This document shows positions 2,614 to 60,787 of a stretch of 64,000 nucleotides of DNA, one piece after another. Source of the DNA: Halosimplex salinum (lineage in GTDB: Archaea > Halobacteriota > Halobacteria > Halobacteriales > Haloarculaceae); contig NZ_QWGG01000013.1 in NCBI RefSeq assembly GCF_003730195.1, positions 62,001-126,000 of the forward strand, in the 5' to 3' direction. The position numbers and the translations under genes were made by a program. Positions within the stretch are counted from its first letter, which is position 1; each line of letters starts with the position of its first letter. The notes beneath the pieces are model-generated. The model did not search any database. It saw only the letters and a list, made by a program, of their open reading frames with translations, and was not told where the DNA came from.

Positions 2614-3714
2614 ATGCAGATCAACGACCGCCACCGGACGACAGAGGGCCGGGAGCGGGTGACGCTCGTCCCAGAGAGTCTGGACGACATGTGGCACCTC
2701 ACCTACATCATCGAGCCCGGTGACCTGGTGTCGGGGGACACGACGCGGCGGATCCAGCGCAACGACGACGACATGCGCGACACCGGCGGCGAGCGCGAGC
2801 ACATGTGGGTCGAGATCGAGGTCGAGGACGTGGAGTTCGCGAAGTTCGCCAACCGCCTCAGGGTCGGCGGCACCATCGTCGACTGCTCCCGCGAGGACCA
2901 GCTCGACTTCCACCACACGATCAACGTCGAGTCCTTCGAGGAACTCGAGGTCGAGAAGGTGTGGAAACCGGACCAGGAGGACCGACTCGAGGAAGCCGTC
3001 GAGGCCACGGAGAACCCCGACGTCGCCATCGCCACCGTCGAGGAGGGCGAGGCCCACGTCCACACCGTCGCCCAGTACGGCACGGAGGAACGGGCGAGTC
3101 TCACGGGGTCGAGCGGCAAGGAGCAGTCCACGCTCACCGGTTCGATGGGGAGAAGCGGCGGCGGGAGTTCGCGCGAGGATCTGTTCGAGGAACTCGCCGA
3201 GGTGCTCGCCCGGATGGAGGTCGACGCCGTCATCCTGGCGGGACCGGGCTTCACGAAACAGCAGGCGCTCGACTACATCGAGGAGAACGAACCGGAACTG
3301 GCCGACCTGATCACGACGGTCGACACGGCCGGCGTCGGCGACCGCGGCGTCCACGAGGTGCTCAAACGCGGCGCCGTCGACGAGGTGCAGACCCAGACCC
3401 GCATCTCGGCCGAGGCGGACCTCGTCGACGAGTTGACCGAGCGCATCGCGAAGGGGTCGGAAGTCGCGTACGGTCCCGACCAGGTCGCCGAGGCCGCCGA
3501 ATACGGCGCGATCGAGACGCTGATGGTCCTCGACGAGCGACTGCGCGAAGAGCGCGGCGACGAGGGCGAGTGGGAGATCGACGTCGACGACATCATCGAG
3601 ACGACCGAACAGAAAGGCGGCGAGGTGACGGTGTTCTCCGGCGAGTTCGACCCCGGCCAGCAGTTGCGCAACCTCGGCGGCATCGCCGCGTTGCTCCGGT
3701 ATCGCATCGATTGA
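2614..3714 (+). CDS. pelA: mRNA surveillance protein pelota (Dom34)
   Basis: Pelota works with an EF1A/ABCE1-type partner to rescue stalled ribosomes and lacks the peptide-release GGQ of eRF1. The 366 residues show the full family architecture: an Sm-like N domain (about 1-130, with [16 protein letters not shown] and the [14 protein letters not shown] strand), a central eRF1_2-like domain (about 130-255, with [20 protein letters not shown]) and a C domain (about 260-366, ending [22 protein letters not shown]). No GGQ is seen. The start is the ATG at 2614, where homology begins; GGAGG at 2596-2600 is a rather distant ribosome-binding site. Confidence 0.95.
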
Positions 3715-44318: not shown

Positions 44319-44352
44319 GCTTTATATACTTATCGCGCTAACTACGAGTTAG
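44319..44352 (+). promoter_or_regulatory. cdc48-operon promoter with CTAAC-N5-GTTAG palindrome
   Basis: TTTATATA (44321-44328) is a strong TATA box. Nine bases later comes CTAAC-TACGA-GTTAG (44338-44352), a perfect palindrome ending 1 base before the start codon at 44354. The site would cover the transcription start. The same motif and spacing occur at the tfb promoter. I recall CTAAC-N5-GTTAG as the binding site of the Archaeoglobus fulgidus heat-shock regulator HSR1. Confidence 0.65.
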
Positions 44353-46845
<2,493 letters not shown>

Positions 46846-58836: not shown

Positions 58837-59856
58837 TCACGCGGCCGTGGGCTGTTCGGCCGCGTCGAGCAGTTCCTGATAGCGATTGCGGATGGTCACT
58901 TCCGAGACGTCGGCGACCTCGCTGACCTCGCCCTGCGTGACCTTCTCGTTGACGAGCAGCGCGGCGGCGTAGACGGCTGCGGCCGCCAGTCCGACGGGGC
59001 TCTTCCCGACGTGGACCTGCTCGTCCTTCCCGGTGTCGAGCAGTTCGCGTGCGCGGCGCTCGACCGCTTCGGAGACGTCGAGGTCCGAGACGAACCGGCC
59101 GACGTAGCTCCCGGGGTCCGCCGGCTGGATCTCCAGGCCGAGTTCGCGGACGACGTAGCGGTACGTCCGCGTGAACTCCATCTCGCCGATCCGGCTGACT
59201 CTCACGACCTCGTCGATGCTGCGCGGGGTCCCGGCCTGCCGGGCGGCGGCGTACACCGCGCTCGAGGCGACGCCCTCGATGGAGCGACCGGGGAGCAGGT
59301 CCTCGTCGAGCGCGCGGCGATAGATGACGCTCGCGGTCTCGCGGACGTTCTCGGGGAGACCGAGCGCGCTCCCCATCCGCTCGATCTCGCCGAGGGCCTG
59401 CTTGAGGTTGCGCTCCTTCGAGTCGCGCGTCCTGAACCGCTCGTTCCAGGTGCGCAGGCGCGACATCTTCTGGCGCTGGCTCGCGTTCAGCGAGTTGCCG
59501 TAGGCGTCTTTGTCCTGCCAGCCGATGTTCGTCGAGAGGCCACTGTCGTGCATCATGTTCGTCGTCGGCGCGCCGACGCGGGACTTCTCGTCCTTCTCGC
59601 CGGCGTCGAACGCCCGCCACTCGGGGCCGGGATCGATCTCGTCCTCGTCGACGACGAGACCGCACTCGGAACACACCGTCTCACCGCGCGTGTCGTCGGT
59701 GACGAGCGAGCCGTTACACTCGGGGCAGGTCTCCGCTCGCTTCCGAGCGTCGGGGCGTTCCGACTCGGTCTCGGTCTCAGCCTCCGTCTCGCTTCGCGTC
59801 TCCGGGGCCGATGCGCGATTCTCCGCCTCGCCGGTGTGGATACGTGTGTCTGTCAT
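58837..59856 (-). CDS. tfb: transcription initiation factor IIB (TFB)
   Basis: A 339-residue TFB, which bridges TBP-bound promoter DNA and RNA polymerase. An acidic N-terminal extension (1-40) precedes the zinc ribbon C44-x2-C47 and C62-x2-C65, the B-reader (GPEWRAFDAGEKDEKSRVG), and two cyclin-like repeats (RSIEGVASSAVYAAARQ; SPVGLAAAAVYAAALLV) with a C-terminal helix-turn-helix (TQGEVSEVADVSEVTIRNRY). Haloarchaea carry several TFBs; this one has its own promoter with a heat-shock-like palindrome and an 85-base leader. Confidence 0.96.
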   Translation of the reverse strand: MTDTRIHTGEAENRASAPETRSETEAETETESERPDARKRAETCPECNGSLVTDDTRGETVCSECGLVVDEDEIDPGPEWRAFDAGEKDEKSRVGAPTTNMMHDSGLSTNIGWQDKDAYGNSLNASQRQKMSRLRTWNERFRTRDSKERNLKQALGEIERMGSALGLPENVRETASVIYRRALDEDLLPGRSIEGVASSAVYAAARQAGTPRSIDEVVRVSRIGEMEFTRTYRYVVRELGLEIQPADPGSYVGRFVSDLDVSEAVERRARELLDTGKDEQVHVGKSPVGLAAAAVYAAALLVNEKVTQGEVSEVADVSEVTIRNRYQELLDAAEQPTAA

Positions 59857-59937: not shown

Positions 59938-59970
59938 CCTAACTCCTCGTTAGGACGAAAAGTATTTAAA
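59938..59970 (-). promoter_or_regulatory. tfb promoter with CTAAC-N5-GTTAG palindrome
   Basis: On the minus strand TTTAAATA (59970-59963) is a strong TATA box. After 9 bases comes CTAAC-GAGGA-GTTAG (59953-59939; with flanks, CCTAAC/GTTAGG at 59954-59938). Transcription should start in or beside it, about 85 bases upstream of the ATG. Motif and 9-bp spacing are the same as at the cdc48 operon. Confidence 0.65.
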
Positions 59971-60043
59971 CCTTTCGCAGGGTTTTAGTGTGGAACCGCT
60001 GTTCAGGGGCGTTCAGACGGGGTAGAGCGCTCCCGGAGCGGGG

Positions 60044-60646
60044 TCAATCGCGGCCGACTTCGGTGTCGCCGTTCTCGTAGTGGTTCCAGAGGTAGAGCGA
60101 GGCGTACGATCGGTAGGGGCGCCAGCGGTCGGCGGCGTCGACCATCTCTGCGCGTGTCATTTCGGCGTCGAAGAGCACGTCCATCCCCTTGCGGATGCCC
60201 AGATCGCCGACCGGGAAGACGTCCTCGCGGCCGAGGCCGAACATGAGGAACATGTCGGCCGTCCACGGGCCGATCCCGTGGACTGCGGTGAGTTCCTCGG
60301 CGACTTCCGCGTCGGACAGTTCGGCGAACGCCTCGCGACTCCAGCCGCGGTCCCGGAACGCGGTCGCCGCGCGCCTGACGTACTCGACTTTCGCCTCGGA
60401 GAGCCCGGCGGCCCGGAGGTCCGCGGGGTCGGCGGCGAGCATCGCTTCGGGGGTCACCTCGACTGCGTCGAACAGTCGGTCCTGGATGGCCGCGGCGGCC
60501 TCCATGGACACCTGCTGTCGGATCAGCGAGACGACGAGGCGCTCGTAGAGGTCCTCGGCCGGGTCGAGCGTGAGCGGGCCGTGCTCGGCGACGACTGGAC
60601 CGAGGATCTCGTCGCTCGCGAGTTCGTCGATCGGGTCCGCTGTCAT
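60044..60646 (-). CDS. HhH-GPD DNA glycosylase (3-methyladenine glycosylase II-like)
   Basis: A 200-residue base-excision glycosylase. The first half has LVVSLIRQQVSMEAAAAI, the second the helix-hairpin-helix TAVHGIGPWTADMFLMFGLG and the catalytic Asp in FPVGDLGIRKGM. This is the AlkA/DNA-3-methyladenine glycosylase II type. The ATG at 60646 is the natural start; a longer frame upstream contains a 12-residue repeat (GAGASRA-type) that is probably not translated. Confidence 0.9.
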   Translation of the reverse strand: MTADPIDELASDEILGPVVAEHGPLTLDPAEDLYERLVVSLIRQQVSMEAAAAIQDRLFDAVEVTPEAMLAADPADLRAAGLSEAKVEYVRRAATAFRDRGWSREAFAELSDAEVAEELTAVHGIGPWTADMFLMFGLGREDVFPVGDLGIRKGMDVLFDAEMTRAEMVDAADRWRPYRSYASLYLWNHYENGDTEVGRD

Positions 60647-60700
60647 CGGCGGGGAGTCGGTGACGAGACGGTATGGGAGTTTCGGAGGGGTCGCCGCTCT

Positions 60701-60751
60701 ACTGGCGCCTGCGCCGGGGCGTGGTGTAGTCGCCCGACTGGCGCCCGCGCC
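60701..60751. repeat. 15-bp direct repeat upstream of the glycosylase gene
   Basis: ACTGGCGCCTGCGCC at 60701-60715 and ACTGGCGCCCGCGCC at 60737-60751 differ by one base and begin 36 bp apart, in the short space between the cysE stop and the glycosylase start. Confidence 0.6.
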
Positions 60752-60787
60752 CCGACCTGCTGCCACCGCTCGACTGGGGGCCGTCCC

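Follow-up and report, generated by a model that had tools for sequence, protein, structure and literature searches.

A conserved palindromic operator before cdc48 and a TFB lineage in haloarchaea, with an HSR1-type protein as its candidate repressor

Why should a gene for a general transcription factor and an operon for a protein-unfolding machine share one palindrome, at one distance from their TATA boxes? The question is raised by a 64-kb window of the Halosimplex salinum genome (the whole stretch of DNA analysed here), in which the exact sequence CTAAC-N5-GTTAG matches only twice, in front of a tfb gene and in front of a cdc48 operon. A first-pass annotation of this sequence had noticed the pair, read it as a repressor site that places one TFB in the cdc48 regulon, and proposed a genome-wide count against controls as a check. 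Our reading, to which we give a probability of about 0.82, is that the palindrome serves as operator for an HSR1-type (Phr/ArsR-like) repressor that would control cdc48, the proteasome, a TFB lineage and its own gene, and that would be released by heat or protein damage.

Results

Two promoters of identical design

The tfb promoter reads, 5' to 3' on the minus strand from 59977 to 59939, CGAAAGG TTTAAATA CTTTTCGTC CTAAC GAGGA GTTAG, then GTTCGG; this re-reading bears out the position, motif and 9-bp spacing of the first-pass annotation. The features of the promoter and its gene are as follows.

59971..59977, minus strand: CGAAAGG, read from the sequence as a presumed BRE-like element 5' of the TATA box
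59963..59970, minus strand: TATA box TTTAAATA, read from the sequence, 9 bp 5' of the operator
59962-59954, minus strand: 9-bp spacer CTTTTCGTC between TATA box and palindrome, read from the sequence
59939..59953, minus strand: operator CTAAC-GAGGA-GTTAG, by sequence match
58837..59856, minus strand: tfb gene (tfbW), 339 aa, with TFIIB zinc ribbon and TFIIB repeats

The ATG at 59856 lies 82 nt downstream of the palindrome, which leaves a 5' leader, and the protein carries the domains of a TFB, a zinc ribbon (PF08271) and cyclin-like repeats (PF00382) in two stretches. Just upstream of the promoter, on the same strand, is a gene for an HhH-GPD DNA glycosylase (window 60047-60766, minus). The second promoter lies on the other strand.

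44321..44328, plus strand: TATA box TTTATATA of the DUF7127-cdc48 operon, read from the sequence
44338..44352, plus strand: operator CTAACTACGAGTTAG, that is CTAAC-TACGA-GTTAG, 9 bp after the TATA box
44354..44581, plus strand: DUF7127 gene, 75 aa, small hsp20-like protein
44578..46845, plus strand: cdc48, a 755-aa CDC48-family AAA ATPase, by protein family match

Here the ATG of the DUF7127 gene (44354) falls 2 nt past the operator, and the stop of this gene overlaps the cdc48 start by four bases. The hsp20 nature of DUF7127 is a matter of annotation, a plasmid homologue being annotated Hsp20/alpha crystallin.

Site counts in this genome

A first-order Markov model built on the window predicts 0.0035 exact matches in 64 kb and 0.28 in the whole genome, and puts the full arrangement TTAWAYA-N9-CTAAC-N5-GTTAG at about 2e-6 per genome; as promoter DNA is AT-rich, this last figure is an underestimate, which makes counts of the reversed pattern the fairer yardstick. 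The genome-wide count came out strongly positive: the 5.07-Mb genome holds three exact sites against none for the reversed pattern, and all three (3/3) have a TATA box exactly 9 bp upstream. Their targets are the hsp20-like (DUF7127)-cdc48 operon, the tfb gene of the window and, at the third, the proteasome alpha gene psmA, which is adjoined by a weak beta-like match. A search of the window alone for the palindrome with 2 mismatches gave no excess, a misleading outcome if taken by itself, and the TATA-anchored search of the whole genome was needed: with up to 3 mismatches TTAWAYA-N9-CTAAC-N5-GTTAG finds five sites (reversed control 2+2), adding to the three exact ones only a second TFB paralogue, at G000:C11:67400, and the promoter of the HSR1 orthologue described below, at G000:C21:65059. 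The latter had already been chosen as regulator by homology before the site search.

Conservation of the site and its targets across haloarchaea

The exact site occurs in 97 of 145 Halobacteria. We read 29 exact-site loci, 23 of which place it directly 5' of DUF7127-cdc48, one before tfb and five elsewhere; of the 27 sites with a TATA box, which were found without a TATA criterion and include the three of this genome, 25 have the 9-bp spacing. With the TATA-anchored pattern and up to 2 mismatches, sites are found in all 57 genomes of the family of the window (f1), in 36 of 40 of a second family (f4) and in 38 of 41 of a third (f3). These searches, covering 138 genomes, yield 247 sites, with the downstream gene identified at the fetched sites and the sites of our own genome excluded: 120 precede cdc48, 83 tfb, 14 psmA, 2 the regulator gene and 28 other genes. 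Known targets thus account for 219 of the 247, and the reversed pattern gives 48 matches in the same genomes. All 14 psmA sites belong to f1 and both regulator sites to f4, a family with few tfb sites at this threshold (10 in 40 genomes). The f3 sites follow the consensus CTTAC-N5-GTTAG, usually with one cdc48 site and one tfb site per genome.

The cdc48 operator ends 10 bases or fewer from the start codon; at the tfb genes a 5' leader intervenes (82 nt in the window). Right half-sites are weaker at psmA (GTGAA) and at the regulator (GTCAA), which could mean graded release or control. Among the loci read individually, f1 psmA sites (L132, L128 and L177, for example) and regulator operators show a degenerate right half, GTGAA or GTAAA, and cdc48 sites are mostly perfect. 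In nine f1 sites without a known target, the neighbourhoods were read and no common gene was found. One f1 locus (L174, G174:C5:161296-162826) carries a 2-mismatch TATA-operator site at the start of a 242-aa ORF. From these comparisons of sequence we conclude that the operator is conserved across the haloarchaea and that its predicted regulon takes in a general transcription factor and, in f1, the proteasome.

The same site is present in a more distant group of the phylum (f14; genomes of roughly 1.0-2.6 Mb), which its gene content suggests to be the Archaeoglobaceae. There the exact site precedes an HSR1 homologue-cdc48 pair and hsp20 genes. In one Archaeoglobi-like genome (L345, G311:C1:1157837-1161851, positions 2715-3611) the opposite strand carries a TFB gene about 0.7 kb away from the operator of HSR1-cdc48, and the link between TFB and HSR1 may be older than the haloarchaea. 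Exact sites also occur in f14 before genes for small membrane proteins (L346, L347 and L350, near position 2001; the one tested is DUF2178), possibly an extra target or the work of another regulator that uses the same site.

TFB genes that carry the operator

The genome has about eleven TFB-like genes and the operator stands before two of them. When 80 TFB loci were selected by protein alone, 47 scored at least 14/17 against the TATA-operator pattern upstream, and the reversed sequence scored none. In a TFB tree, 49 of the 51 operator-labelled rows fall in a single group of 52 rows, 49 of which bear the operator, the tree support of this group being weak (85/11). The window TFB belongs to it, as does its orthologue from a further Halosimplex genome, which is 84% identical and likewise preceded by the operator. 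Most Halosimplex genomes lack a tfbW orthologue, and the exact tfb site of the window is therefore a local one; the second TFB has matches at 93-94% identity in Halosimplex species (by search of named genomes), and the sister TFB is preceded by an operator in every other Halosimplex genome that was read. The Halobacterium TFB of the group has a degenerate site only. At three Halorubrum TFB loci (L404, L408 and L430) a TATA box is followed by a CTTAC-type half-site and GGTGA before the TFB gene, possibly a shifted or drifted operator.

The candidate regulator

The published binder of this palindrome is HSR1 of Archaeoglobus, and searching this genome with Archaeoglobi HSR1 returns one close match (8e-28; next match 6e-6).

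G000:C21:65089-65733, outside the window: candidate repressor, 215 aa, with an ArsR-type HTH and a C-terminal HTH_Cmi2_C domain

It is found in 144 of 145 Halobacteria, aligns with Archaeoglobi HSR1 over its full length and keeps the HTH residues PK-V--HL that are invariant between the two groups. Its best sequence match in the PDB is Phr (2p4w, E 1.3e-19); against the NCBIfam model for Phr (NF053602) it scores 86 bits where the cut-off is 320, which makes it homologous to, and short of, Phr proper. The predicted fold (mean pLDDT 85.8) has two best matches, about equal, Phr and PF0095 of Pyrococcus furiosus, which we take to be SurR. Since the structure comparison failed to separate these two, the HSR1-type assignment is based on sequence together with the HSR1 search. 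Two other proteins with strong HTH_20 matches (L033 and L037) were dropped as candidates because they have no HTH_Cmi2_C domain.

In the promoter of the regulator the exact position holds a weak, degenerate operator (7/10). The match rises to 8/10 in genus g6 and to within 2 mismatches in two f4 genomes, and is weak in several others. Over 24 distinct haloarchaeal regulator promoters the match to the operator averages 5.4/10 at offset -14 relative to the start codon, where the median across offsets is 2.5 (sd 0.43); these promoters are related, so the figure is support rather than a probability. The regulator itself probably belongs to the regulon. In its domains and full-length homology, in an operator placed between TATA box and start, and in targets of the cdc48/hsp20 type, the system has the features of the HSR1 family.

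Discussion

We propose, on the evidence of sequence, that in normal growth a dimer of the HSR1 orthologue would occupy the palindrome shortly after the TATA box; because the operator spans about -14 to +1 from the TATA-predicted start, the bound dimer should block the loading of RNA polymerase. Heat or protein damage would free the repressor from its operator, and this release would switch on the hsp20-like-Cdc48 operon, the proteasome alpha/beta operon and one TFB lineage (two paralogues here), together with the gene of the repressor itself, which would provide negative feedback. The induced TFB may then help to steer polymerase to more stress promoters. That this two-tier circuit was present in the haloarchaeal ancestor, with HSR1 controlling Cdc48, the proteasome in some lineages, and a stress-TFB for a second wave of promoters, seems to us an evenly balanced proposition.

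The first-pass view of the site as a repressor's gains support from its position just downstream of the TATA box and from the presence of an orthologue of a known repressor, HSR1, and the inclusion of one TFB in the cdc48 regulon is backed by the same operator and spacing before cdc48 and one TFB lineage in three families. The shared regulon and the repressor reading are thus supported; what had gone unnoticed was the match to the published HSR1 site, the proteasome, the second TFB and the probable self-target.

Bacteria combine HrcA/CIRCE repression of proteostasis genes with a sigma-32 cascade, that is, a repressor with control through an initiation factor. The haloarchaeal arrangement would work alike with unrelated proteins, the initiation factor here being a TFB under the repressor itself.

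Operator and regulator type are already known in Archaeoglobus: according to PMC9133787, which like PMC5852551 cites Rohlin et al. 2005, the HSR1 protein of A. fulgidus recognises CTAAC-N5-GTTAG and is proposed to keep transcription off until heat. Common to both systems are an operator just past the TATA box, the HTH_5 and HTH_Cmi2_C domains, cdc48 and hsp20-type targets, and probably autoregulation, the putative haloarchaeal autoregulatory site being degenerate. In the haloarchaeon, however, the regulator gene is unlinked from cdc48, the TATA-operator spacing is 9 bp where our own reading of the f14 sites gives mostly 8 for Archaeoglobi, and the regulon adds a TFB lineage and, in f1, the proteasome. 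Phr of P. furiosus, the closest sequence in the PDB, resembles the regulator in fold and in being a start-site repressor of heat-shock genes, but its DNA site is made of TTTA, TGGTAA and AAAA blocks (PMC9133787) and it has no cysteine equivalent to Cys27 of the regulator. A 2022 review (PMC9133787) reports no HSR1-type mechanism identified in halophiles. As far as the literature outside subscription papers shows, it is new that operator and regulator type are conserved in haloarchaea and that the regulon includes a TFB lineage and the proteasome.

The signal admits another reading. The same repressor and operator might respond to thiol/redox state or to general protein damage and not to heat as such, which we consider unlikely. 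Cys27 is invariant in 27 of 27 aligned regulators and aligns with the second cysteine of the CxxC of PF0095, itself one of the two best fold matches, and is possibly a sensor residue, but the first cysteine of the pair is absent. SurR belongs to arCOG01684 (PMC9426492), as does the HSR1-type family, and proteostasis targets serve in many stresses; against this, HSR1 and Phr are both regulators of the heat response (PMC5852551, PMC9133787), and in heat-shock arrays of Halobacterium NRC-1 cdc48b rises 5.6-fold, cdc48d 3.4-fold and tfbG 2.4-fold (PMC1971269). In H. volcanii tfb2 rises up to eight-fold on heat (PMC2121645). These published data are consistent with the proposed circuit and are not proof of it, as the array genes may not be the operator-bearing ones.

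It is improbable that the operator and regulon are real and bound by some other winged-helix regulator. The genome does offer at least 79 HTH_20-like matches; nevertheless the HSR1 orthologue alone closely matches Archaeoglobi HSR1, one of the five best sites of the genome lies in its own promoter, its PK-V--HL residues are kept in both groups, and the palindrome is the published HSR1 site as PMC9133787 summarises it. More doubtful still is an activator in place of a repressor: the sign of regulation cannot come from sequence alone, but the site occupies the interval between TATA box and start where polymerase must load, and the account in PMC9133787 describes Phr as a repressor over the start site and HSR1 as a proposed repressor. 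Finally, short palindromes do arise at random, and the 2-mismatch search of the window gave no excess, but a mere likeness of two unrelated palindromes is next to impossible given the exact sites, fixed spacing and target identity over 138 genomes, comparative counts that refute it, and the target specificity of the site likewise rejects its reading as a core promoter element.

With an HSR1-type repressor as the preferred reading, the finding bears on an old question, why haloarchaea have many TFBs and what brings about the induction of those that respond to heat. The work of Lu et al. 2008 on TFB2/TFBb of Haloferax/Halobacterium at hsp5, as summarised in PMC9133787, shares with our proposal a TFB that goes up on heat shock, but in the model as summarised there control lies with the BRE/TATA elements and with the TFB, and no repressor takes part; the operator and regulator described here are a candidate cis-site and regulator for heat-induced TFBs of this kind. 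For direct tests in genetically tractable halophiles there are now a named cis-site, a short list of targets and, in almost every haloarchaeon sampled, a candidate regulator. One operator would link the Cdc48 unfoldase with the protease it may work with, and one repressor may switch repair machines together with part of the transcription machinery. If this is true, the multiplicity of haloarchaeal TFBs would be explained in part by TFBs placed under specific repressors.
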